This document shows positions 30,387 through 44,477 of a stretch of 60,590 nt of DNA, in pieces; positions within the stretch are counted from its first letter, which is position 1; each line of letters begins with the position of its first letter. The position numbers and the translations under genes are program-made. The DNA lies in the NCBI GenBank assembly GCA_029433475.1, contig JAQTIE010000002.1, positions 1 through 60,590 on the forward strand, written 5' to 3'. This stretch comes from Neisseriaceae bacterium ESL0693. GTDB lineage: Bacteria > Pseudomonadota > Gammaproteobacteria > Burkholderiales > Neisseriaceae. Below the pieces are notes generated by a model. That model had not been told where the DNA came from, ran no database searches, and saw only the letters and a program-made list of their open reading frames with translations.

Positions 30387-30422
30387 ATTGAATAAACAGA
30401 CACTATACCTGAGGATATGTTA

Positions 30423-31409
30423 ATGGAAATAACCACAGTTTTCGATTATGAAGATATTCAGCTGATTCCGAATAAGTGCATTATTGAACGCCGTTCAGAG
30501 GCCGATACTTCAGTGAAGCTGGGTAAGCACACATTTAAGTTACCTGTTGTACCTGCCAATATGCAAACCGTGATTGATGATGCGTTGGCCATGCAATTGG
30601 CAAAAGCCGGCTATTTTTATGTGATGCATCGTTTTAATCCTGAGACACGTTTGGATTTTGTACGTCAATTTCATGCAGCCGGACAGATTGCGTCCATATC
30701 GGTTGGGGTTAAATCAGAAGAGTATGAATTTATCAATCAATTAAAGGAAGCTGGTTTAGTTCCTGATTATATTACCATTGATATTGCCCATGGTCATGCC
30801 GATTCAGTTATTAAGATGATCCAGCATATTAAAGAGACATTGCCGGAATCGTTTGTTATTGCCGGTAATGTGGCTACACCTGAAGCAGTACGTGATCTGG
30901 AAAATGCAGGAGCAGATGCAACCAAAGTAGGTGTGGGGCCCGGTAAAGCATGTATTACAAAATTAAAAACCGGCTTTGGTACCGGTGGCTGGCAATTGGC
31001 CGCATTACGCGTATGTGCGAAGGCAGCCAAAAAGCCGATTATTGCAGATGGCGGTATTCGTTATAACGGTGATATCGCTAAATCGGTTCGTTTTGGTGCC
31101 ACCATGGTGATGATTGGTTCATTATTTGCCGGTCACGCAGAAACCCCGGGAGATATTGTAGAGATAGATGGTGCCAAATATAAAACATACTTTGGCTCAG
31201 CATCACAATATCAGAAGGGTGAATATAAAAATGTTGAAGGCAAGAAATTGCTGGTGCCTTACCGTGGTGCCATTATGGATACCCTGACAGAAATGCAACA
31301 AGATTTACAGTCGTCCATTTCTTATGCCGGCGGACGTGAATTGCGCGATTTAAAACTGGTTGATTACGTTATTGTGAAGAATTCAATTGTGAATGGTGAT
31401 TCATACTAA
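30423..31409 (+). CDS. guaC: GMP reductase (GuaC2 type)
   Basis: A 328-residue TIM-barrel enzyme of the IMPDH/GMPR family that converts GMP to IMP with NADPH, recycling guanine nucleotides. The catalytic Cys177 lies in [17 protein letters not shown], and [28 protein letters not shown] and the flap [10 protein letters not shown] are family features. Length and the absence of a CBS pair separate it from IMP dehydrogenase; it is closest to the shorter Firmicutes-like GMPR form. ATG 30423 is chosen over 30417 because the GAGGA site at 30411 is seven bases before it and would be too close to the first ATG. Confidence 0.93.
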
Positions 31410-32527: not shown

Positions 32528-33901
32528 ATGACTGAATTATACCGGCATTATGCACTTATTCTGGCTTCAGTTATGGTGATTGCTGTCCTGGCCGGATTGA
32601 TGGGCGGCTGGTTGTGGTTTACCAGCAGTCTGTGTCTGGCATTATTGTATTGGCTGGTGGTTTACTGGTGGCATCTGGCGAAGTTGATGCGATGGTTAGA
32701 GCGTCCGAAATTACGTAATGCACCTCAGGGACTGGGTATCTGGCATACTATTTTTTCTGTTCTGATTGCCCAGGCGCGCAGCCGTAAAAAACGTAAACAG
32801 AAACTGGGCGTGGCATTGGCGCGCTTTAATCGCATTGCAGAAACCATTCCTGACGGGGTGCTGGTTTTAGGCAGTGATGGCCGGATTCAATGGCTCAATC
32901 ATTTGGCAGCGGAGCATCTGAATCTGGATCCGGTGCATGATCGTAATGCTTTATTGTCTGAGGTGATTGATCAGCATGCTTTGCAGCAGCTTGTATCATC
33001 GAATTCGTCAGAAATAAATACAGTGCAAATATCAATGACTACCCCTCAGGGTTTACCGCGGGTACTGAATATTATTCGTACTCCTTTTGAAGCGCAGGCA
33101 ACCTTATTGATCAGTGAAGACATTACCGCCGCAGAACAACTCAATGCAACACGTACGGCGTTTGTGGCCAATGTATCGCATGAATTGCGCACACCTTTAA
33201 CCGTAATTAATGGTTTTCTGGAAACCTTGGCCGAATTTACTGATCTTCCCAAAGCACAACAGCAGGAATTTATTGGTCTGATGCATAAGGAAAGTCAAAG
33301 GATGAATCAGCTATTGACTGATTTACTGACATTATCACGGCTGGAAAATCAGGCCGTGACCAAGGTGATTAGAAAGCCGGTTAATCTGTCTGAGCTGGTG
33401 TATCAGCTGGTGGCCGAAGCTGAAAATGTTTCCAAACAAAGACATCATTTTAAAATCGATATTGAGCCTGATGTCTGGATAAAAGGCATGGCAGAAGATG
33501 TTTACAGTGCATTAAGCAATCTGGTGTTTAATGCCGTACGCTACACGCCTGAAGAAGGGTGGATTTGTTTATCATTGCACAGTAAACCAGATCAGCCAGA
33601 CTGGGTGCAATTCACCGTACAGGATACAGGACCCGGTATTGCACCAGAGCATCTGCCTCATTTAACCGAGCGGTTTTATCGTGTTGATGCCGGACGATCA
33701 CGTCAGAACGGCGGAACCGGACTGGGTCTGGCAATTGCCAAACATGCCTTAGCAGAACATGGCGGTTGTTTGTCCATTGAAAGCCAGTTAGGCAAGGGCA
33801 GTATTTTTACCGCATCAATACCCAAGTGGCTGGGAGAATCAGTGATAGAAGAGACTTTTTCAGTCAAATCGCATAACGATATTGCTGTACTTGACAAATA
33901 A
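32528..33901 (+). CDS. phoR: Sensor histidine kinase, PhoR type
   Basis: A 457-residue inner-membrane kinase: two N-terminal hydrophobic segments (about 10-50) with almost no periplasmic part, as in PhoR, a PAS domain (about 100-200; AETIPDGVLVLGSDGRIQWL), H-box FVANVSHELRTPL with His218, and the ATPase domain with N-box NLVFNAVRYTP, DTGPGIAP and GGTGLGLAI. The lack of a sensor loop fits sensing through the Pst/PhoU proteins, which are not in the window. The tRNA-Lys promoter sits inside its last codons. Confidence 0.88.
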   Translation: MTELYRHYALILASVMVIAVLAGLMGGWLWFTSSLCLALLYWLVVYWWHLAKLMRWLERPKLRNAPQGLGIWHTIFSVLIAQARSRKKRKQKLGVALARFNRIAETIPDGVLVLGSDGRIQWLNHLAAEHLNLDPVHDRNALLSEVIDQHALQQLVSSNSSEINTVQISMTTPQGLPRVLNIIRTPFEAQATLLISEDITAAEQLNATRTAFVANVSHELRTPLTVINGFLETLAEFTDLPKAQQQEFIGLMHKESQRMNQLLTDLLTLSRLENQAVTKVIRKPVNLSELVYQLVAEAENVSKQRHHFKIDIEPDVWIKGMAEDVYSALSNLVFNAVRYTPEEGWICLSLHSKPDQPDWVQFTVQDTGPGIAPEHLPHLTERFYRVDAGRSRQNGGTGLGLAIAKHALAEHGGCLSIESQLGKGSIFTASIPKWLGESVIEETFSVKSHNDIAVLDK

Positions 33902-33929: not shown

Positions 33930-34005
33930 GGGTCGTTAGCTCAGTCGGTAGAGCAGCGGACTTTTAATCCGTTGGTCGAGCGTTCGAATCGCTCACGACC
34001 CACCA
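33930..34005 (+). tRNA. tRNA-Lys (anticodon UUU)
   Basis: A 76-base cloverleaf: acceptor GGGTCGT pairs with ACGACCC, D-loop AGCTCAGTCGGTAGAGC, anticodon loop CTTTTAA with UUU at 33963-33965, T-loop GTTCGAATC and an encoded CCA. Bases 33959-34005 are also the left part of a 64-base direct repeat whose other copy lies 9,908 bases downstream, marking it as an island insertion site in which the tRNA was kept intact. Confidence 0.97.
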
Positions 34006-34022
34006 GATTTTTAAAATCAGAT
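33959..34022 (+). repeat. Direct repeat, left copy (att site at the tRNA-Lys 3' end)
   Basis: Sixty-four bases from the anticodon stem through CCA to ATTTTTAAAATCAGAT, identical to 43867-43930. Position, orientation and length are those of an attachment site used by a tyrosine-recombinase element. Confidence 0.88.
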
Positions 34023-34049
34023 GAGTTACGTATTTCTGATTTTAATTTC

Positions 34050-34090
34050 AAAGCCACAATTCTGCTTGTGCCAGATTTGTGGCTTTGTTT
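34050..34090 (+). terminator. Terminator after tRNA-Lys
   Basis: AAAGCCACAA (34050-34059) pairs with TTGTGGCTTT (34077-34086), followed by GTTT. A diverged relative lies at 43967-44006 beyond the second repeat copy. Confidence 0.75.
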
Positions 34091-34384
34091 CATGATTGCA
34101 TCAATAATTCCGGCATATATATGTAGATGTTGATATAAATGGACTTGTCTCGGTACCATTTTTGTCAATTTTTACTGACCTATTTCATTTTAAATATTCT
34201 AAGATCAGACAGAATAGATCAGCCAGCTTTTTAAGACAAAATCGTAAATTCTGTCATGAAAAAATGCAAAATTTATCTTCTGAATTTTATTCCCTGATTT
34301 ATCGGTTGATATTTTAAACGGATGGCACTTGAGTTAACTCAATGTATGTCTGATGTTTGACTGACCAGTCAATTCATTTCTTTA

Positions 34385-34534
34385 TGACTGATCAGTGAAT
34401 GCCATATCAAATATCTGTTCCGGTTTAATACCATTGGTGTAATAAAAATTATTTTTAACCTTCTCAATATGGCTTCGCCCAAAATCTATTCAGGTATGCC
34501 TCAGGGATTGCGTTGCCAAAAATGACATTTGATA
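34385..34534 (-). pseudogene. Possible gene remnant downstream of the aldolase gene
   Basis: On the minus strand just after the aldolase stop, one frame reads NVIFGNAIPEAYLNRFWAKP then Tyr-stop, and after a frame change KVKNNFYYTNGIKPEQIFDM AFTDQS-stop follows directly. The two look like neighbouring parts of one protein broken by a frameshift. I do not recognise it; a lost fifth gene of the operon is possible. The rest of 34091-34384 is AT-rich and featureless to me. Confidence 0.25.
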
Positions 34535-35446
34535 TTATGTGTGCATGATGCCGTAGATTTGCCCGCGGGTGATAATATTTTGTGCCCATTTTCTATGCGT
34601 TGCAGGCTCACACATTGCCCCTGAAGATTTAAAGACGGCTTGTGGGCCATCAAGTATTTTCAATGCATCACTATACTGAAGCTCGGATACGGCTAAAGAA
34701 TGTTGAATCAAATCAATCTGAGTTGGATGAATCGCTGTTTTACCTACCAGCCCATTGGCTATGTCCAAGTCAAGTTCACTTTTTAAAATACGCTGATCAT
34801 CGATAAGCTCGCAGACCGGTGCTGTTAAGGCAAAACCTTTAGAAACGAAAACAGATGCTAACATTTTAATAACATATCCCAGCGGGGTGTCATATAAAGT
34901 AACGCCTGTGGGTCTGCGTAAGGAAAGTACATTCAGTAAATCATTCCCGCCAATTCGCAAAGCAATAATTCGTTGCCTGCATTCATGTTGTGCCAGGTTA
35001 TCCGCCATGTTTTGCATGGTTAAGACATCAAATGTTTCCTGAGTTTCCAAAGTGGGCATCATATACAGATGATTATTTTGCATGATTTCCCACCATGCTT
35101 CCAGGCTACTCAGGGTAAATTTAGGCAGTACCAGACCAGCAATACGCTCTAGATTAAAATTTGCTGTTAACTGTTTAGCCATTGCTATATTTCGAGGCCT
35201 TATAAACAATAATGGCCAGTCATTACTTTCTGGCTGTTTCTTATCTGCGTTTAAGTGTTGCAGAATATGAGTGAGATTATTCAGTGCTTCAGGGATATCA
35301 TCTTCACTGACTGAATCCTCAAGGCAAATAATCAATGATCGCAAACCAGCAATTTTTTTATGCTGAATAACTTCAAGAATATCTTTACGTGTGGCTGGCA
35401 TATATAAAGTTGCACCCAATTGCCACGGGGAAATTAAATGTTTCAT
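34535..35446 (-). CDS. HpcH/HpaI aldolase / citrate-lyase beta-like protein of a Ter operon
   Basis: A 303-residue protein of the CitE-like TIM-barrel family. Family marks are ICLEDSVSEDDIPEA (acidic metal-site region), LFIRPRN (substrate-binding Arg), LVLPKF, and MMPTLETQETF (metal-binding Glu). True citrate-lyase partners (alpha, gamma chains) are absent. Genes of this type sit in the biosynthetic module of Ter systems, where comparative work (Anantharaman, Iyer and Aravind) proposed that it helps make a nucleoside-like metabolite; the reaction is unknown. Its start overlaps the stop of the gene before it by four bases (ATGA). Last gene of the four-gene operon. Confidence 0.82.
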   Translation of the reverse strand: MKHLISPWQLGATLYMPATRKDILEVIQHKKIAGLRSLIICLEDSVSEDDIPEALNNLTHILQHLNADKKQPESNDWPLLFIRPRNIAMAKQLTANFNLERIAGLVLPKFTLSSLEAWWEIMQNNHLYMMPTLETQETFDVLTMQNMADNLAQHECRQRIIALRIGGNDLLNVLSLRRPTGVTLYDTPLGYVIKMLASVFVSKGFALTAPVCELIDDQRILKSELDLDIANGLVGKTAIHPTQIDLIQHSLAVSELQYSDALKILDGPQAVFKSSGAMCEPATHRKWAQNIITRGQIYGIMHT

Positions 35447-36525
35447 TTACCTACCTTTTTTATTATGGTTACTGCGCGATAGCGACCAAGGTTATGTCCT
35501 GTTTCCGTTATTGGAATATTTTTGTCTTTTGCCAATTTAACCAGTAAAGCAACATCGGGATCATCGTAAGAGCAAACCAGTACATGCTCAGGTACTCTGC
35601 GCAGAACAGCGCGGGTAGCTTCAGCGATTCCGGGTTTAATCCGATTCAGATTATTTATATGATAATCATGACTTAATTGTGTTATTATTTTCTGGCTTAA
35701 CTGCCATCGTTGCTGGTTATCCGCTGGTTTATAATGGATATCTGGTAGTAAGGTATTCTTCAACTGTTCACAATAAAGCCGAACTTTATTCACCAGCATA
35801 TTACTGCAATCATATTCTTGCAGGTGATCGCATTTCACACAGCCATGTAAACCATCGGCCGACCAGACTGAACGTGAAATCAGTCCTGAAACTGGAGCAC
35901 CCATGATACCAAACGGGATCAGCCAGTCATCATCACTGGCCGCGAGCCATGCACAACCGCAAGGATCAGTCAGTACAACTAAACGTGGTTTTTCAGGGTA
36001 GCCAGTACGGTTTTTTAATGCCTGTTCCAATTCATGACTAATCGCCCCTTTTCCTGTCCAGCCATCAACAAAAATGATACTTTCTGTGCCATGACGCGAT
36101 TCTATGTATTCCAGTGCAGTAGTATCTATGCCTCTGTCACGAATAATACTGATGCCATAATGGATAGATGCTTTTCCCATGGATTTAAGGGTTTGATGCA
36201 ACATTACCCCCAAAGGAACTCCGGCTCGCACCAGGCTAACCAGAACAATGGTTTTATCTGGAATATATTGAATCAGGGCACGTGCAATTTGCATGACTTC
36301 TGTAGCCATTCTGGCCAGATTCTGACTTAACGATTGAGAAAAAATATCCAGATGATATTGAGTCGGAATGGGCTCCTGACTCAGCATATCGGAATAATGC
36401 ATTTCCCCTGATTGGATGAGTTTTTCTTTGAGTTTTAATGGCGTAAAGGCCATCTGGATAGGTTCCAGTAAGAACTGAACATCGCCTTCATGATAGGAAC
36501 CAGAAAAAGGAATGACTTGAATCAT
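35443..36525 (-). CDS. Ter-operon phosphoribosyltransferase-like/StiP protein with C-terminal PELOTA domain
   Basis: A 360-residue protein. The N-terminal two thirds match the StiP/PRTase family: FSGSYHEGDVQFLLEPIQ at the start, VSLVRAGVPLGVML, and IIFVDGWTGKGAIS, which aligns with the PRPP-binding loop of phosphoribosyltransferases. The last 60 residues (HVLVCSYDDPDVALLVKLAK...) resemble the L7Ae/PELOTA RNA-binding domain. An older annotation calls the family a cysteine protease; the phosphoribosyltransferase reading fits the loop better. Starts at ATG 36525, overlapping the phosphatase stop by four bases; an upstream TTG at 36549 is less likely. Confidence 0.8.
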   Translation of the reverse strand: MIQVIPFSGSYHEGDVQFLLEPIQMAFTPLKLKEKLIQSGEMHYSDMLSQEPIPTQYHLDIFSQSLSQNLARMATEVMQIARALIQYIPDKTIVLVSLVRAGVPLGVMLHQTLKSMGKASIHYGISIIRDRGIDTTALEYIESRHGTESIIFVDGWTGKGAISHELEQALKNRTGYPEKPRLVVLTDPCGCAWLAASDDDWLIPFGIMGAPVSGLISRSVWSADGLHGCVKCDHLQEYDCSNMLVNKVRLYCEQLKNTLLPDIHYKPADNQQRWQLSQKIITQLSHDYHINNLNRIKPGIAEATRAVLRRVPEHVLVCSYDDPDVALLVKLAKDKNIPITETGHNLGRYRAVTIIKKVGK

Positions 36526-37307
36526 TTTATTTGAGATATTTCTTTGCAAATTTGGTTTGAGATGGTGCTGTGAAACTGGCTATGTTGTGGTAGCATCAGC
36601 CAATGGCAAAGTTTCATAAAGCGGTAATCACTCAGGCTGTCACCTATGCCGATAACGGGAAAAAGGCCGCGATCTGCTTTTAATTTTTTTAATAACCAGT
36701 CAACGGCCAATCCTTTATCTACAGGTTGGGGTAACCAGGCAATATTGTTATCATTCCGGTGAATATAAAAACCTTCACTGGAAATCTGTTGTTCAATTTC
36801 TTTATTTATCTCATATAATTCATCTATCCGACTGCTGTTACGATGCTTCATGACCAGATAAACGGGTATCTGATCGTATTCATAATTAATTCTTGCCCAT
36901 GCATCTATACCTCGATGCTGCATGATTGCAGTAATGGTTTGCTGCATATCGGTTAACCGGTCAGCATAAGGCAATAAACGTGGTAGTATGTGTTTTTTCC
37001 ATGTCTCATCGATTTGTCCTGCCGGATTGAGAATAACTGCCCCATGTGTTGTGATGACCCATGAATTAAAGGCAATCTGTACCCGGCTGATTTCTTCTGT
37101 GCCTCGTGCGGTAACCGGAATTAACTCTGCCTGTCCCAATAACCAGTCTACCCAGACTGCCTGTTCAGCCGTCATGAAACTGCGGGGCTGCATATTGCGA
37201 TCCAGTGCCCCCACTCTGACTGCTTTACTGTCTGTTATGGCGCTTATTTTTCTTTGCGTCTGAAACAACGTATCATCCAGATCACTAAATATAACAGGTT
37301 TACACAT
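36522..37307 (-). CDS. HAD-superfamily phosphatase of a Ter operon
   Basis: A 261-residue haloacid-dehalogenase-type hydrolase. Motif I is IFSDLDDTLFQT (two catalytic Asp), motif II probably the VTARGTEE region, and motif IV is GIGDSLSDYRFM. The long cap between them resembles sucrose/trehalose-phosphate phosphatases, so the substrate may be a sugar phosphate. It is coupled at both ends: its ATG lies inside the end of the upstream PRTase gene (8 bases) and its stop overlaps the next start. In Ter biosynthetic clusters this protein is thought to dephosphorylate the product of the phosphoribosyltransferases. Confidence 0.83.
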   Translation of the reverse strand: MCKPVIFSDLDDTLFQTQRKISAITDSKAVRVGALDRNMQPRSFMTAEQAVWVDWLLGQAELIPVTARGTEEISRVQIAFNSWVITTHGAVILNPAGQIDETWKKHILPRLLPYADRLTDMQQTITAIMQHRGIDAWARINYEYDQIPVYLVMKHRNSSRIDELYEINKEIEQQISSEGFYIHRNDNNIAWLPQPVDKGLAVDWLLKKLKADRGLFPVIGIGDSLSDYRFMKLCHWLMLPQHSQFHSTISNQICKEISQIK

Positions 37308-38448
37308 AACTAATAATTTCTGTCCTTGGTGCAATTTTATCTAAAGCCTTCAACAATAGCGGGTCTACACTGTCTGGTGGTGTTTCAATACATAACAGGA
37401 TTCGATCAAATTTCTGGTGAGCAATGTTGTATACAAAATTAGGTATGCCCAGACCATAGTTATCTGTAAAGGCAATGACAGATTGAATTGCCAGCCCTTT
37501 TGCTATTGGCGAACGGCTGATGGAGCTATAGCTTACCTGTGCGCCTTGTGCTTCCAGTCTTTCAGCAAGCAAAAAGGGCAGCCAGACAAATTCGCCACTG
37601 CCCAGCACCAGAATCTTTTCATCTGGCCGAACTGTCAATTCCAACCCGAGGCTGTCGGTCGATTTCATCATACCTAATCTGCCCCAAGACTGATTATTAC
37701 TTATGGGTATGGATTTTCTGGCTGTAATATTGATGTGGGGCATGGAAGGCATAGATGCCTGCAAATTGGGTAACCATTGCCATTGACCGGATATGAGTGA
37801 AACAGCATGAACCGGTAGTTCACTGTTTTGCTGTAATGCATTATTACTCCAGTCAGTGAGCGTCACGGTAATAATTTTTTGTAATTTATTCAGTATCCGG
37901 GTTTTTTGTATTGCTTGTAACAGATTCTGGAATGTTTTTCCGGTTGTTGCTTCATCATCTACCAAAACAATGGTGTGTGCATTTTCTATGTGCTGCTGCA
38001 TCAGTTTGTCGCTGGGGAAATAAATCAGATGCTCAGTAGCATGGCTGTGTTCTTCCTGAAATGAACACCACAAATGGCCATTAACAGGATGACGTGTTGA
38101 AGTAAGATAGACGGATGATTGTAATTGGGGTTGCATGACATCAAAAATACCTGCGCCTAGTCCTACTGCTGTTTCGGCCAGCCCGATAAACAGCACCGGC
38201 TCAGTGATAAGATTGTCTAATTTACCAGCCAGTTGTTGGTAAATCTGCCGCATAGCAGAAGGAGCTACGGGAATATGTCTGCCTAATACTTTACTGACAA
38301 AGAGAAATGAACGACGGGGATTACGTCTTTGCGCAATATCGAATAGCGCTGCAAATGAATGATCAGTCTGGTTACAGGTAATTTTCAGTGTACCGGCAGG
38401 TAATGTATAAGTACTGGCCTGAAATTGATGTTTAGAAGAAATATTCAT
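37300..38448 (-). CDS. Ter-operon phosphoribosyltransferase (PRTase_2) with TRSP domain
   Basis: A 382-residue protein, first gene of the minus-strand operon. About residues 50-250 form a phosphoribosyltransferase domain with the PRPP loop IVLVDDEATTGKTFQNLL; FIGLAETAVGLGAGIF and YLTSTRHPV are also typical. The C-terminal third (from about 270: EILVLGSGEFVWLPFLLAE-like, then SRSPIAKGLAI) matches the TRSP domain that follows PRTase_2 in Ter clusters. It would attach or remove a ribosyl-phosphate group on an unknown base. Transcribed away from terZ; the shared 511-base spacer presumably holds both promoters. Confidence 0.82.
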   Translation of the reverse strand: MNISSKHQFQASTYTLPAGTLKITCNQTDHSFAALFDIAQRRNPRRSFLFVSKVLGRHIPVAPSAMRQIYQQLAGKLDNLITEPVLFIGLAETAVGLGAGIFDVMQPQLQSSVYLTSTRHPVNGHLWCSFQEEHSHATEHLIYFPSDKLMQQHIENAHTIVLVDDEATTGKTFQNLLQAIQKTRILNKLQKIITVTLTDWSNNALQQNSELPVHAVSLISGQWQWLPNLQASMPSMPHINITARKSIPISNNQSWGRLGMMKSTDSLGLELTVRPDEKILVLGSGEFVWLPFLLAERLEAQGAQVSYSSISRSPIAKGLAIQSVIAFTDNYGLGIPNFVYNIAHQKFDRILLCIETPPDSVDPLLLKALDKIAPRTEIISYV

Positions 38449-38959
38449 GTACTATTTTCTAACTAATCTATAATTTTATTTAAAAATGATTCTTACCATT
38501 TGACTATATTTTCCTAATGTGATTATTTCAAGTTTAAAATATATTATTTGTTTGCAAATTTAGTTTAAAGCTATAATAAAATCATCTAAACCATTATTAA
38601 TATACAATATTTATTTTTATTAAAAAATTTTCACTTTGAAAGTGCATGGAAATTACTTGGATTACATTAAGAACTGCATATTGATTCAATAATAAATTAA
38701 TTAAAATCCCGCTTTTACCATAGTCAATATAAACAAAATAATAACACATTTAAACTTATGTTGATTAAATAAATATTTTCAGTGAAAGTAAATACTTAAA
38801 AATATAAAATCAATATCGCTATCATAAATAATAAATATTTCACTTTATTCTATTGGCAAATGTTGACAATGATGTATGAAATTATAATAATAATTTCCAG
38901 TTAGGGTCGTTTTATTGTTAATTTTTCACTCTGATTGAACCTACTTATAAGGCAATAAT
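38449..38959. other. Divergent AT-rich control region of the Ter island
   Basis: 511 bases, extremely AT-rich (visibly far above the genes on either side), between the minus-strand operon and terZ. TTGACA at 38863-38868 with an AT-rich -10 (AATAAT 38886-38891, 17-base spacer) is the likely terZ promoter. No regulator gene or clear operator palindrome is seen. Such AT-rich spacers are common targets of silencing proteins. Confidence 0.5.
38863..38891 (+). promoter_or_regulatory. Probable promoter of terZABCDE
   Basis: Consensus TTGACA (38863-38868) and AATAAT (38886-38891) with a 17-base spacer, 68 bases before the terZ start. The -10 is ambiguous because the region is full of AT runs. Confidence 0.45.
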
Positions 38960-39547
38960 ATGATTTCATTGAGCAAAAATCAAACTGTTTCACTCAGTAA
39001 ACAATCTGCTGCATTAAGCCAATTACATTTTGGTTTGGGATGGGAGCCTGCTAAGAAAAAAAAAGGATTTTTTAGTAGTCTGCTTGGAGGTAATGAGGAA
39101 ATTGATTTAGATGCAAGCTGCATTCTCATGGATCATAACGGTAAAAAAATCGATGTCATCTGGTTTGTTCAACTCATGTCCCGATGCGGTTCAGTGATTC
39201 ATAGTGGCGATAATCTGACTGGAGAAGGTGAAGGCGATGATGAAGTAATTCATGTTGATCTAAATTGCCTGCCGCCGGAAGTGGAATACTTGGTTTTTAC
39301 CGTAAATAGTTTTCGCGGCCAGACATTTAATGATGTAGAAAATGCATTTTGTCGGGTACTTGACCAGTCTGAAAAAGAGCTGGCTCATTATCAGCTGACG
39401 GAGAAAGGCTCACATACCGGCATTATTATTGCCTCATTGTGTCGTAATAACGGTAACTGGGATTTTACCGCCTTAGGTACCGTCACTCAGGGACGCACTA
39501 TTGAAGACATGTATGCGGATATTGTCCGGACGGTAATACCACGATGA
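38960..39547 (+). CDS. terZ: TerZ, TerD-family calcium-binding protein
   Basis: A 195-residue cytoplasmic TerD-fold protein. It opens with the repeated SLSKNQTVSLSKQS pattern, has the acidic calcium sites EIDLDASCILMD and [13 protein letters not shown], and the TerZ-specific Lys/Gly-rich insert KKKKGFFSSLLGGNEE after GLGWEPA. TerD-family proteins bind Ca2+ and are thought to work at the membrane with TerC and TerB in resistance to tellurite, phages and pore-forming colicins. Its stop overlaps the terA start by four bases. Confidence 0.92.
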   Translation: MISLSKNQTVSLSKQSAALSQLHFGLGWEPAKKKKGFFSSLLGGNEEIDLDASCILMDHNGKKIDVIWFVQLMSRCGSVIHSGDNLTGEGEGDDEVIHVDLNCLPPEVEYLVFTVNSFRGQTFNDVENAFCRVLDQSEKELAHYQLTEKGSHTGIIIASLCRNNGNWDFTALGTVTQGRTIEDMYADIVRTVIPR

Positions 39548-40704
39548 ATTTACCAGCCGGCGGCAATATTTTAGTGCCTAGCTCAAACCTGCATATCTGC
39601 ATTACCTCTTCTCACCCGATAGATGCTGCTGCTTTTCGCTTGTTTGAAAACAATAAAGTCGATGGTGATGATGATATGGTTTTTTACGGGCAACCTTGTG
39701 ATGCAGAAAATTCTATTTGTTTAACCCAGAATGGATCAAAGACAGCTTTTGCTGTTTCTTTAACTAAATTAAAGCCGCAAGTCCAGAAAATCGCTTTTAC
39801 CATTAATTGTGATGCTGGAAAAAAACTGTCTTCGCTAAATAATTTAACCATACAGGTTAATCACCAGAATACCAGCATAGCTGAAGGTGTGGTAGAACTA
39901 TCCGATCGACAGGAAGCTGCTTTAATTCTCGGAGAATTATACCGGTATAAAGAAGGCTGGAAATTCCGCTTTATCGCGCAAGGATTCAATGGTGGCTTAA
40001 AACCATTAGCCGAACATTTTGGTATAGAGGTTGCTGATGAAAGGAAAACAGCACCTGATGAAAATCGAATGTCTTCTTCCGCTGCTTCAGACAGGCAGGT
40101 TGTGCTGGACAAAGTATGTCTGACTAAAGACAAACCCATGATCAGTCTGGCAAAACGATCTGATTTCGGTAAGATTAATATTAATCTGAACTGGAGTCTT
40201 GGAAACCAGCCTACTAACAAATTATCGAAAATATTTAAACGTAAAAACATCGATCTGGATCTGGGTGCCTTTGTTGAACTTCAAGATGGTAGTAAAACCG
40301 TAGTACAGGCACTGGGTGAAACGTTTGGTCATTATGACGAGATGCCCTTTGTTCAACTGTCAGGCGATGATCGCAGTGGTGAAGTTGCTGATGGTGAATG
40401 GCTTTATGTTAATGGTGCACACTGGAAAAATATTCGACAGATTCTGATCTATGCTTTTATTTATGATGGTGTACCAAACTGGAATGAAACAGATGCCACT
40501 GTAACCTTGTATATTCCCAGGCATCCTCCCATTGAGACCCGTCTCATCGGCGGTGATTATAAATACCCGATGTGTGCTATAGCTCAATTGGTTAATGTGG
40601 ATGGCACCATTAAAGTGGAAAGAATTAACCGTTACTTTTATGGTCACAGTGATATGGATAATGCATTTGGTTGGGGCTTTCGCTGGCAAGCCGGTACGAA
40701 ATAA
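39544..40704 (+). CDS. terA: TerA, two-domain TerD-family protein
   Basis: A 386-residue protein of two TerD-like domains, the TerA layout. The first domain (1-165) keeps the fold-defining ALILGELYRYKEGWKFRFIA segment but lacks the GDNxxGxGEGDDE calcium loop, having ENNKVDGDDDMVFYGQ instead. The second domain (about 195-386) has KNIDLDLGAFVELQDG and the acidic SGDDRSGEVADGEW. So one domain has probably lost its canonical calcium site. Second gene of the ter operon, coupled to terZ; terB starts 15 bases later. Confidence 0.9.
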   Translation: MNLPAGGNILVPSSNLHICITSSHPIDAAAFRLFENNKVDGDDDMVFYGQPCDAENSICLTQNGSKTAFAVSLTKLKPQVQKIAFTINCDAGKKLSSLNNLTIQVNHQNTSIAEGVVELSDRQEAALILGELYRYKEGWKFRFIAQGFNGGLKPLAEHFGIEVADERKTAPDENRMSSSAASDRQVVLDKVCLTKDKPMISLAKRSDFGKININLNWSLGNQPTNKLSKIFKRKNIDLDLGAFVELQDGSKTVVQALGETFGHYDEMPFVQLSGDDRSGEVADGEWLYVNGAHWKNIRQILIYAFIYDGVPNWNETDATVTLYIPRHPPIETRLIGGDYKYPMCAIAQLVNVDGTIKVERINRYFYGHSDMDNAFGWGFRWQAGTK

Positions 40705-40719
40705 ACAATAGGATAATAA

Positions 40720-41172
40720 ATGAGTTTTTTTAATAGTATTAAAGAGACATTGACTTCGGGACATAACGAGTTGGCTCGTCAGGTAGGTCGTTTCAAAAAC
40801 AAGAAATTTATGCAGGGGACGGTGGCCGTCTGTGCTTATATTGCTGTGGCCAGTAACGGCGTCAGTACTGAAGAAAAAAAGAAGATGATGGATTTTTTAA
40901 AATCTTCAGAAGAGTTGAAAGTTTTTGAAACGGAAGAAATCATCGAATTTTTCAATAAATTATTAAGTCATTTTGAATTCGATAATGAAATCGGTAAAGG
41001 TGAAGCCATGAAATATATTCTGGGTTTACCCAGACCTGAAGCTGCTCAGCTGGCGTTAAGAGTAGGTATTGCCGTAGCCAAAAGTGATGACGATTTTGAT
41101 GTTGATGAACAAAAAGCTGTGAGTGAAATTGCGAACGCACTGGGATTTCATCCACGGGATTTTGGTATTTAG
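40720..41172 (+). CDS. terB: TerB
   Basis: A 150-residue all-helical protein of the TerB family (about 151 residues in E. coli). VAVCAYIAVASNGVSTEEKKKM and AVAKSDDDFDVDEQKAVSEI carry the acidic metal-binding residues conserved in the two helical halves. TerB binds TerC at the inner membrane in the current model. RBS: AGGATAA before ATG. Confidence 0.92.
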   Translation: MSFFNSIKETLTSGHNELARQVGRFKNKKFMQGTVAVCAYIAVASNGVSTEEKKKMMDFLKSSEELKVFETEEIIEFFNKLLSHFEFDNEIGKGEAMKYILGLPRPEAAQLALRVGIAVAKSDDDFDVDEQKAVSEIANALGFHPRDFGI

Positions 41173-41193
41173 AGCAGTAGCGGAGAAAACAGA

Positions 41194-42219
41194 ATGACTA
41201 CTACTCATATCGGGTTTCCATTTGAAACCGTCATGGTTTTTGTTGGGCTTTCAGTCATAGCACTCTTGATTGATTTGTTTGCACATCGCAACAATAAAAC
41301 AATTTCGCTGAAAAGTGCGGCCTTATGGTCTGTATTCTGGATCATGGTTGCCATGGTATTTGCCGGTTTCCTTTATATCCATCATGGAGCAGACGTAGCC
41401 AGCTTGTTTGTTACAGGCTACGTTCTGGAAAAAGTACTCTCAGTAGATAATCTTTTTGTCATGATGGCTATCTTTTCCTGGTTTGGCATCCCTGATGGTT
41501 ATCGACATAGGGTTTTATACTGGGGCATCATTGGTGCTATTGTGTTCAGAGGCATATTTGTTGTTATTGGTACAGGTCTTTTGAGTCTTGGGCCTTATAT
41601 TGAAGCTCTGTTCGCTGTGATTGTGTGTTGGACAGCCATCATGATGCTTAAAAATGATGATAACAATGAAGAAATCGAAGATTATTCTCAACACCTTGCC
41701 TATCGGCTGGTTAAACGCTTTTTTCCTATCTGGCCAAAACTTGCGGGTCAGTCATTTTTCTTAACGAACAAAGAAGTAGATAGCGCACTGGTTTTGCCGG
41801 AAAACAAAAATATTACTGTTGGACGAAGCACTAAAGCTGTGCTCTATGCCACTCCGCTTTTATTGTGTACTGCGGTTATTGAATTGTCAGATGTGATGTT
41901 TGCTTTTGATTCCGTACCGGCCGTCATTGCAGTCAGTCGTGAGCCGCTCATTGTTTATAGTGCCATGATGTTTGCCATTCTTGGGTTACGTACCCTTTAT
42001 TTCGTACTTGAGGCATTAAAACAATACCTGGTTCATCTGGAAAAAGCGGTAACCGTTTTGCTGTTTTTTATTGCATTCAAACTGGGTCTTAATGCCTCCG
42101 AACATTTTTTCCATCACGGTTATTACATTTCCGATACAGTCAGTTTAAGTATTATTCTGCTAGTGTTGGCGGCTGGTATTCTGGCCAGTTTCATTTTTCC
42201 TGAAAAATCAGAACAGTAA
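41194..42219 (+). CDS. terC: TerC family integral membrane protein
   Basis: A 341-residue inner-membrane protein with about eight or nine helices. The family signatures are EKVLSVDNLFVMMAIFSWFG and AVIELSDVMFAFDSVPAVIA with buried acidic residues that suggest metal-ion transport or sensing (relatives Alx/MeeF export manganese). In Ter systems it is the membrane anchor for TerB and TerD proteins. Fourth gene of terZABCDE. Confidence 0.94.
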   Translation: MTTTHIGFPFETVMVFVGLSVIALLIDLFAHRNNKTISLKSAALWSVFWIMVAMVFAGFLYIHHGADVASLFVTGYVLEKVLSVDNLFVMMAIFSWFGIPDGYRHRVLYWGIIGAIVFRGIFVVIGTGLLSLGPYIEALFAVIVCWTAIMMLKNDDNNEEIEDYSQHLAYRLVKRFFPIWPKLAGQSFFLTNKEVDSALVLPENKNITVGRSTKAVLYATPLLLCTAVIELSDVMFAFDSVPAVIAVSREPLIVYSAMMFAILGLRTLYFVLEALKQYLVHLEKAVTVLLFFIAFKLGLNASEHFFHHGYYISDTVSLSIILLVLAAGILASFIFPEKSEQ

Positions 42220-42277
42220 ATCGTAGTAGACCATATTGATATTTTAATCAGTTCACTTTTTATGATGGGAGTAAAAA

Positions 42278-42856
42278 ATGAGTGTTTCTCTTTCTAAAGG
42301 CGGTAATGTTTCTCTAAGCAAAACAGCGCCAAGTATGAAAAATGTCCTGGTCGGTTTAGGCTGGGATGCACGCTCAACTGATGGGCAAGACTTTGACCTT
42401 GATGCTTCGGCATTTTTACTGGCGGCCAATGGACAAGTCAGAAATGAACGAGATTTTATTTTCTACAACAATCTGCAAGCAGTTGATGGGTCTATCGTTC
42501 ATACTGGGGACAATCGTACAGGGGACGGGGAGGGAGATGATGAAGCACTGATCATCAAACTCGATGCTGTTGCAGCAGACATTAATAAAATTATTTTTGT
42601 TGTTACTATTCATGAGGCTCAACAGCGAAGACAGAATTTTGGCCAGGTTTCAGGCGCATTTATTCGAATAGTTAATAATGATAATCAAGCAGAAATAGTC
42701 CGTTATGATTTAACTGAAGATGCCTCTACAGAAACAGCTATGCTGTTTGGAGAACTTTATCGTTATAACAACGAATGGAAATTCCGTGCTCTTGGGCAGG
42801 GATACAGTGGTGGACTGGCTTCGGTGTGCGCGCAATATGGCATTAACGCAGCCTGA
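42278..42856 (+). CDS. terD: TerD
   Basis: A 192-residue TerD-family protein, the usual length. Calcium-binding acidic clusters are [13 protein letters not shown] and [36 protein letters not shown] is the C-terminal signature. Very similar to terE downstream, probably an old tandem duplication. Confidence 0.94.
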
Positions 42857-42919
42857 TTACCACGTAGATAATTATATTATCATGTAATTGTCTATTTATA
42901 TATTCATTACAAAAAGGAG

Positions 42920-43501
42920 TTGGCTATGGCCGTTTCACTGACCAAAGGAAGTAATGTTTCTTTAAGCAAAGAAGCACCGGGTATGAACATGGTGTTGGTT
43001 GGACTTGGCTGGGATCCGCGTGTCACTGATGGACAAAAATTTGATTTGGACGCTTCGGTATTTTTAGTAAATGAAGACAATAAGGTTTTATCCGATCAGC
43101 ATTTTATATTCTATAATAATATGAAGAGTCCGGATAATGCCGTGCAACATCAGGGCGATAATCAGGATGGTGAAGGAGAAGGAGATGATGAGCAAGTCAT
43201 CATTGACTTGTCTAAAGTAGATACCGCTGTAAAAAAACTGGTTTTTGCTGTGACTATTCATGAAGCGGATAGTCGTAAACAAAACTTTGGTATGGTTAGC
43301 AATAGTTTTATTCGTGTTGTTAATAATGATACCCAGACTGAAATAGCCCGCTACGATTTATCTGAAGATGCCTCAACAGAAACGGCAATGATTTTTGGTG
43401 AACTGTATCGTCATAATAATGAATGGAAATTCAAGGCTATTGGCCAAGGGTTTGCCGGTGGTCTGGCTGCTTTAGCCCGACAACATGGAATTAATATTTA
43501 A
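42920..43501 (+). CDS. terE: TerE, TerD-family protein
   Basis: A 193-residue TerD-family protein; [14 protein letters not shown] and [16 protein letters not shown] are the calcium sites. The N-terminus may be [11 protein letters not shown] at the second Met (42926), preceded by AAAAAGGAG, which would give 191 residues, the E. coli length. Last gene of the ter operon; a strong terminator follows. terF and terW of the enterobacterial cluster are absent. Confidence 0.93.
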
Positions 43502-43508
43502 GCCTATC

Positions 43509-43541
43509 AAATACAAACCTGATACTCAGGTTTGTATTTTT
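43509..43541 (+). terminator. Rho-independent terminator of the ter operon
   Basis: AAATACAAACCTGA (43509-43522) and TCAGGTTTGTATTT (43526-43539), perfect 14-base-pair stem with a 3-base loop and T run. Confidence 0.92.
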
Positions 43542-43866
43542 ATCATGAAATATAATTTCATTTCAATAAAATGAAAACCATAAAATAATTATTCTGAAAA
43601 TGGTTCATATATTCTTTAATTTTGCATAATAATATCTATACAATCTTATTGATGTAAACCATTTTATTATTATGCAGATTATGATTGTTTTAAGTAAATA
43701 AAATTTTCAGCTCAATAAGAATTATAACTGCCTATATATTTTCATTCATAAAAAACGATGATTTGCTGTGGAAAATGGGTATTGTTTGCAGTATGTTATC
43801 TTATTAAATATGATTGAATGTATAAACATAATATTTACTAGAATCATATGACTATGTTTTTTGACA

Positions 43867-43930
43867 GACTTTTAATCCGTTGGTCGAGCGTTCGAATCGC
43901 TCACGACCCACCAGATTTTTAAAATCAGAT
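43867..43930 (+). repeat. Direct repeat, right copy (orphan 3' part of tRNA-Lys)
   Basis: Identical over 64 bases to 33959-34022: the last 47 bases of tRNA-Lys including the anticodon loop and CCA, plus 17 bases. The 5' half of the tRNA is missing, so it is not a working gene. It marks the far end of the island. Confidence 0.9.
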
Positions 43931-44477
43931 TATCGGGTTAATATATATATTCCTGATGTTAAGACTTAAACCACAATTCTGCCTGTTTCAGAGTTGTGGT
44001 TTTATTCTATGGTTTGGCATGATAAATACATTTTTATGTAGGTATGCGACTGATGGTTGGGCAATTTCTGTATTCGTACCGTGGATTTTCAACCGTTTAT
44101 TTACTTCAGTACAATCAATATGCGCTACTTTATGATAGTCAGTTTGTCTCAAATCATGCGGCTATTCAATGGTGGGTGATTAAATGCCGATTAATATTTA
44201 TGTTTTCCTATGCATGTAATTAACCCTATGGTTAAAGAAGAGGGATTCTTGCCGGTTGATATTATCATTTACCATGCATGGTCTGAATGATCAGTCCATA
44301 TGCAATGACACTGAGTTTGGCCACCGAAAAGGATTGAGCACAGACTCATGGCCAGCAGATGCCAAAGTGTGGAATTTGCCTTAAAATAATGGTTTGATGT
44401 TTTTATTGTATCATTGCATGATAGCATATGATTTTTAGGTCAGATAAATCAGATCTGAAAACGGTTTAAGGATCCTT
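43931..44477. other. Spacer between island end and lysS
   Basis: Contains the displaced terminator at 43967-44006. A 59-codon frame at 44044-44223 (MRLMVGQFLYSYRGFSTVYL...) has an ATG but no ribosome site and no family I know. 43542-43866 on the island side is AT-rich with nothing visible. Confidence 0.35.
43967..44006 (+). terminator. Terminator following the orphan tRNA fragment
   Basis: AAACCACAA (43968-43976) pairs with TTGTGGTTT (43994-44002), then TATT. Same layout and loop type as the terminator after the intact tRNA (34050-34090), but diverged; probably the host's original tRNA-Lys terminator. Confidence 0.65.

Follow-up and report, generated by a model that had tools for sequence, protein, structure and literature searches.

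The 60,590-nucleotide stretch of Neisseriaceae bacterium ESL0693 analysed here (contig JAQTIE010000002.1, positions 1 to 60,590; hereafter the window) contains a tRNA-Lys gene followed by a block of ten genes of the Ter system. The block is a genomic island at a tRNA gene, and each of its borders carries a direct repeat of the tRNA 3' end, the two copies being spaced 9,908 bp apart. The genes between the repeats form two divergent operons: the plus strand encodes TerZ, TerA, TerB, TerC, TerD and TerE, and the minus strand a protein with PRTase_2 and TRSP domains, a haloacid dehalogenase (HAD) phosphatase, a protein with StiP and PELOTA domains and a CitE-like lyase. Both this layout and the insertion at tRNA-Lys had been proposed in an earlier reading of the sequence and its open reading frames (ORFs), hereafter the original prediction, and are borne out by the ORF map, the Pfam matches and the repeat pair. 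The features are as follows, in window coordinates.

33930-34005, plus strand: tRNA-Lys (anticodon UUU; tRNA call), the integration target, still complete
33959-34022, plus strand: left direct repeat (att-like), the last 47 bases of the tRNA and 17 further bases, 64/64 identical to 43867-43930
34023-34534, minus strand: integrase pseudogene, decayed remains of the 3' half of a tyrosine integrase, directed toward the tRNA (alignment)
34535-35446, minus strand: CitE-like C-C bond lyase (PF15617)
35443-36549, minus strand: StiP domain (predicted phosphoribosyltransferase) and PELOTA_1 (PF11202, PF15608)
36522-37334, minus strand: HAD phosphatase (PF08282)
37300-38448, minus strand: PRTase_2 and TRSP (PF15609, PF12500), here the first gene of the biosynthetic operon
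38449-38959, no strand: 511-bp inter-operon region, the position of the ATP-grasp gene in most Enterobacterales relatives (locus comparison)
38960-39547, plus strand: TerZ-like, TerD domain (Pfam; orthology from gene order and score)
39544-40704, plus strand: TerA-like, TerD domain (Pfam; orthology from gene order and score)
40720-41172, plus strand: TerB (PF05099)
41194-42219, plus strand: TerC membrane protein (PF03741; TIGR03718 above cut-off)
42278-42856, plus strand: TerD-like, TerD domain (Pfam)
42920-43501, plus strand: TerE-like, TerD domain (Pfam)
43867-43930, plus strand: right direct repeat (att-like), 64/64 identical to the left copy
43931-44477, minus strand: a further integrase scar beyond the island, in a more decayed state and reaching lysS; weaker evidence (alignment)

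All ten ORFs between the repeats are open, and searches with profile hidden Markov models placed each protein in its expected Pfam family and none in an unrelated one. On the minus strand the E-values were 1e-106 for C-C_Bond_Lyase, 2e-89 for StiP, 7e-26 for PELOTA_1, 2e-6 for the HAD domain (Hydrolase_3), 9e-61 for PRTase_2 and 6e-21 for TRSP; on the plus strand TerB (3e-18) and TerC (5e-41) were recognised, and four proteins carry a TerD domain. With mechanically called starts, neighbouring minus-strand ORFs share 4, 28 and 35 bp. The G+C content is 38.8% in the island, versus 44.1% in the rest of the window, and 20% in the 511 bp between the operons. By its gene content, namely several TerD-domain proteins with TerB and TerC plus the linked four enzyme genes, the block is a Ter-dependent stress response locus, an ordinary member of the known Ter system on a relic island. 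We consider it likely that this is a relic integrative island at tRNA-Lys(UUU) carrying a core Ter locus derived from Enterobacterales, the enzymes of which would make a stress metabolite, and that the ATP-grasp protein of related loci is dispensable to it.

The original prediction described a block cleanly bounded by att repeats, which does not hold at the left end: positions 34023-34534 are an integrase pseudogene, which makes the island a decayed integrative element. An intact tyrosine integrase of 340 aa is encoded elsewhere in the same genome (G000:C23:201563-202585), and the left end of the island is co-linear with 493 bp in the 3' half of its gene, with 318 of 458 positions identical and a z-score of 17.5 against 300 dinucleotide shuffles. 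Past 34130, outside the best-conserved block, z is still 10.6, and a further alignment gives 79% over 127 bp. The alignment scores 612, whereas 32 stretches of the window compared on both strands as controls (64 comparisons) reach 264 at most. The more distant integrase of the congener G006, to which the intact C23 integrase is 60% identical, showed no significant match to the left end. No intact integrase was matched on the window's contig, and the pseudogene comprises the 3' half only. The island is therefore a relic without its own integrase. Since that integrase is decayed, the island has probably become immobile, and if anything now maintains it, this would be the advantage conferred by its genes. 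The C23 integrase adjoins, at its 3' end, a tRNA-Lys that reads as having a CTT anticodon (by eye from the sequence); its acting in trans on the repeats of the island would be speculation. Island integrases usually read into the 3' end of the tRNA, and this is also the orientation of the intact 375-aa integrase at tRNA-Lys in G006.

Outside the island, the scar at 43931-44477 gives z 7.6 and, beyond 44011, outside its best block, only z 4.1; its 44-bp core scores 48 versus a maximum of 31 in 200 shuffles, and no match to the G006 integrase was found. Downstream of 99348 in G000:C21, a second tRNA-Lys(UUU), in tandem with tRNA-Asn, has a third scar behind it: about 0.9 kb of decayed sequence from this integrase family (z 17.8). 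We read these remains as repeated integrations of one integrase family at tRNA-Lys genes, the ter island being the relic of one of them. The repeated hairpin after the tRNA was rejected as a tRNA terminator: at several tRNA-Lys sites, the sequence that contains it aligns with the 3' end of the integrase, although the hairpin may additionally end transcription.

Less probable, while deserving some weight, is the insertion of the ter block into an older integrase scar by homologous recombination, in which case that integrase would not have carried it. The absence of the 5' half of the integrase, the lyase gene beginning right at the scar, and the failure to find integrase similarity in 43502-43866, at the island's right end, speak for such an origin, but the perfect 64-bp repeat pair and the orientation of the scar fit ordinary integration.

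A StiP match was obtained in only one of 101 genomes, the window's own, and in none of the 100 relatives; the block is therefore not common to all relatives, as expected for an island. Among the 14 genomes of the genus, 13 have a full-length lysS match: the window's own and, at 86-90% identity, all but one of the other 13. PhoR was matched at about 60% identity in eight of the 13 other genomes, seven of which carry the same tRNA-Lys after phoR. Where phoR and lysS lie on one contig (five of the 14 genomes), they are separated by about 0.24 kb in G012, 10.6 kb in the window's genome, 11.2 kb in G011, 47.8 kb in G008 and 62.6 kb in G006; G006 and G008 are single-contig genomes. In G012 (contig C11) no tRNA-Lys was found in the roughly 240 bp between the two genes, unlike in the seven congeners. 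The ten gap proteins examined over G006, G008 and G011 include type VI secretion proteins (tail sheath, IcmF) in the tRNA-lysS gap of G006, a gp25-like baseplate protein and an autotransporter in G008, and an autotransporter in G011. The 3' end of the G006 integrase has matches after the tRNA in four of six further congeners (G002, G003, G009 and G011; not G008 or G013), with no integrase gene listed in those flanks. These matches come from 400-bp flanks at stricter scores, a permissive 1.1-kb alignment being too noisy except for G002. As the contents of the tRNA-lysS interval differ and the integrase matches recur, the site is variable and reused. The PhoR of the window (32528-33901) is itself only about 60% identical to its congeners, versus 86-90% for the nearby LysS.

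The origin of the locus was traced among named relatives, which are the best 80 of at least 584 confirmed StiP places. The main tree was built from the four concatenated enzymes and has 60 rows. Of 81 loci, 77 (the window and 76 others) contain the full set of four genes and supplied these rows; four loci lacking genes were left out, and thinning removed 17 near-duplicates. The window is nested in an Enterobacterales clade of 21 rows with a support of 99 in the Shimodaira–Hasegawa-like approximate likelihood ratio test (SH-aLRT; quick tree, 60 rows), and a 23-row quick tree groups it with Superficieibacter, Buttiauxella and Lelliottia (support 98). The betaproteobacterial loci of Burkholderia are placed with Pseudomonas, not with the window, in the main tree. 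The host is probably itself betaproteobacterial, because the closest match of its LysS is PDB 4ex5, presumably a Burkholderia protein. A count of DNA uptake sequences, made to help place the host, was uninformative, with a single hit to one of eight patterns. The core Ter locus was thus apparently acquired from Enterobacterales, and the Ter system would have reached a small-genome host. Of 72,556 plasmid records, 2,568 carry a StiP relative (E 1e-5), and 1,684 of these are called conjugative; plasmids could therefore have carried the locus.

Profile searches found no ATP-grasp, TerF, TerW or TerY in the window, in agreement with the original prediction. Elsewhere in the genome, no Ter ATP-grasp was found by a whole-genome search and no TerW by a search made without a positive control. 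The inter-operon region 38449-38959 holds no remnant of an ATP-grasp gene detectable by tblastn with seven ATP-grasp proteins at E up to 10, while in most Enterobacterales relatives the biosynthetic operon starts with this gene (PF15632 in two tested). Counted with a profile clean of PRTase_2 proteins, ATP-grasp is matched in 64 of the 80 named loci, three of them with broken copies (L023, L037, L058), and in the other 16 it is not; six of these 16 lie on short contigs or are without other core genes (L036, L047, L061, L062, L074, L084). With 16 of 80 loci lacking it, the ATP-grasp gene is a usual companion of the Ter locus, not a defining part. The description of the system as minimal holds in that its gene set is reduced, but this is not special to the window, given the same absence in those 16 loci and the patchy occurrence of TerW, TerF and TerY among the loci of named relatives. 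Other complete loci without ATP-grasp are those of Xenorhabdus bovienii (L009), Photobacterium (L030) and Crocinitomicaceae (L031), while L013 and L015 are also missing one TerD/TerE copy.

A whole-genome search, from which L058 and the six short or atypical loci were left out, found no Ter ATP-grasp in any of the 11 genomes without a copy in the locus (the window's and ten others). In L037 and L023 it recovered fragments and nothing more, and all three positive controls yielded complete copies. The presence or absence of ATP-grasp needs 10 changes on the tree, 12 when broken copies are counted as absent and 8 when the truncated loci L036 and L061 are set aside. The change count alone gives no direction; the fragments indicate that loss has occurred. 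At L023, L037 and L058 the gene is in pieces, namely a 62-position N-terminal stub in an Erwinia metagenome-assembled genome (MAG) and split pieces in Burkholderia and in a Desulfovibrio MAG. A clade uniting the window with Xenorhabdus through one shared ATP-grasp loss was disfavoured in the approximately unbiased (AU) test (p-AU 0.022), with long branches in play. No statement on ter loci lacking ATP-grasp was found in literature titles and abstract beginnings among the matches listed, Anantharaman 2012 being outside this scope.

An unlikely alternative is that the ATP-grasp step is still required, with one of the host's housekeeping ATP-grasp enzymes supplying it in trans. The genome does contain two generic ATP-grasp matches in open frames of 1,074 and 392 aa, which we take, judging by length, to be CarB and PurT/PurK; neither matches the Ter-specific profile at E 1e-5, and such generic matches were present in all 14 control genomes, so that supply in trans would leave unexplained the retention of a dedicated copy at most loci.

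The predicted enzymes fit the model proposed in 2012 (Anantharaman et al. 2012, retold in PMC7824862), as far as their sequences can be compared with it. According to that account, the phosphoribosyltransferases (PRTases) and the HAD phosphatase make nucleoside or nucleotide derivatives as a signal, which TerB and TerD bind, TerC acting in the membrane. The idea of a Ter metabolite dates from 2012, and the retold account names no product. The PRTase_2 protein has an invariant phosphoribosyl pyrophosphate (PRPP)-binding loop, DDE...G.T (D164, D165, E166, G170, T172), and of its 25 hits to solved structures (E up to 10), 23 match PRTases or PRPP synthetases in this loop, with a best E of only 0.008. 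The lyase matches the beta subunits of citrate lyases (3e-15), and the C-terminus of StiP has a weak L7Ae match, consistent with PELOTA. For the N-terminal domain of StiP, no PRTase was found among 36 profile hits (best E 0.013); a stretch of StiP, VDGWTGKGAI, is invariant, and we infer that it may be the PRPP loop. Pfam (PF11202) and database records name StiP a cysteine protease. No invariant catalytic cysteine was found among the 42 aligned sequences, each cysteine of the window protein being present in at most 35 of the 41 relatives.

In the mechanism that we favour, the four minus-strand enzymes (two predicted PRTases, the HAD phosphatase and the CitE-like lyase) would make a nucleoside-like small molecule under stress. 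The TerD-domain proteins and TerB, together with TerC in the membrane, may sense this molecule or metal ions and protect the envelope, and ATP-grasp would act in a dispensable step, e.g. a late decoration of the product. The ter genes of Klebsiella are described as responding to Te, Zn and Mn (PMC12054061). The same source presents TerC-TerD as the minimal unit, with full tellurite resistance in E. coli conferred by TerZCD or TerACD, and states that TerW regulates the ter operon; as TerW was not found here, control must differ from TerW regulation.

A main role of the island in defence against phages or colicins is about as improbable as supply of the ATP-grasp step in trans. Phage inhibition and colicin resistance were reported for genes of plasmid R478 (Whelan 1995, a title cited in PMC9933665), and a TerB-like domain is described in the Shango defence system (PMC10250203). 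However, no PADLOC system was matched, nine of the ten proteins had no match at all, and PRTase_2 had only weak PRTase_III-A (PRTase-loop) matches.

Conservation was assessed in alignments with relatives picked from the 80 for diversity: 41 were aligned with StiP, 40 with PRTase_2, 24 with the lyase and 26 with HAD. The window keeps every residue at the invariant columns of the four enzymes: 49/49 in StiP, 40/40 in PRTase_2, 42/42 in the lyase and 21/21 in HAD. In three Xenorhabdus loci without ATP-grasp, the ratio of nonsynonymous to synonymous substitution rates (dN/dS) of the four enzymes is 0.06-0.17, indicating purifying selection, compared with 0.03-0.13 in six ATP-grasp-bearing pairs; these values are rough, with dS often >1, and as the window has no close relative for dN/dS they refer to Xenorhabdus. 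The retained invariant residues and the low Xenorhabdus values argue that the four enzymes work without ATP-grasp, at least in Xenorhabdus. ATP-grasp thus looks optional, because its absences recur, the invariant residues are kept and the Xenorhabdus enzymes are under purifying selection. More tentatively, and with the chances slightly against it, we suggest that the four-enzyme core makes the finished active molecule, ATP-grasp adding an optional, lineage-specific decoration, in which case the loci without it would be the shortest working version. Having ten genes and none for ATP-grasp, TerF, TerW or TerY, a natural locus such as this one narrows down the enzymes that have to suffice for the Ter metabolite and offers a compact set for reconstitution.

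Several observations weigh against a working, Enterobacterales-derived relic island in which ATP-grasp is dispensable. The branch of the window is long (0.71), which could mean relaxed constraint, and its position inside the clade is an open fork in the larger tree. StiP and PRTase_2 each have two deviations at columns conserved in >=95%. With rows scoring <75% of the best excluded, the Ter proteins carry substitutions at 4 of 347 invariant columns, each conservative, and at 9 of 137 columns conserved in >=95%, some of them not conservative. In Xenorhabdus the dN/dS of HAD, at 0.13-0.17, is the highest of the four enzymes and above most ATP-grasp-bearing pairs. L041, L052, L054, L056 and L059, all without ATP-grasp, also lack other ter genes or have them split, and part of the pattern may be general decay. 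Plasmids nearly always keep ATP-grasp (2,489 records at 1e-20, versus 2,568 for StiP at 1e-5 and 2,550 for PRTase_2 at 1e-20; total counts, not matched record by record). Finally, a strict empty site was not found: the tRNA-lysS interval holds other DNA in G006, G008 and G011, the three congeners readable across it, and G012 is without the tRNA. The original observation is confirmed and its interpretation partly supported. The least probable alternative is a functionless leftover, in which Ter genes that came by chance lost ATP-grasp and the regulator and are now drifting; the decayed integrase, the ATP-grasp and TerW not found and the long branch would suit it, but the ten ORFs are open and all four enzymes keep their invariant residues, while the adjoining integrase is riddled with changes.

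The Ter locus itself is of a known kind, and the point of note here is that ATP-grasp looks dispensable. The chromosomal ter loci of the Enterobacterales Buttiauxella (L006) and X. bovienii (L009) have the same two divergent operons in the same gene order, and their StiP proteins are 67% and 65% identical, respectively, to that of the island. Unlike the island, the Buttiauxella locus also has ATP-grasp, TerF, TerW and TerY, while that of X. bovienii, like the island, is without ATP-grasp, TerF and TerY but keeps TerW. An uncultured Photobacterium (L030), known from a contig of 13.3 kb, has the same ten genes, likewise with no ATP-grasp, TerF, TerW or TerY, and branches more deeply than the island. 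The prophage-like elements of E. coli described in PMC8193136 (ter-types 1, 3 and 4) similarly carry ter genes at tRNA genes; however, these are given as 52-256 kb in size, with many other genes, at tRNA-Ser, -Met and -Phe, whereas the island is 9.9 kb, carries ter genes and an integrase scar only, and lies at tRNA-Lys. The ter genes of the 235-kb Acinetobacter phage vB_AbaM_ME3 include a StiP relative that is 35% identical and is annotated as phosphoribosyl transferase and haloacid dehalogenase.

Upstream of the island, the window encodes a GMP reductase (30417-31409) with a strong match to the TIGR01306 type (606 bits) and a weak one to the TIGR01305 type (181 bits), which is perhaps unusual for the host.

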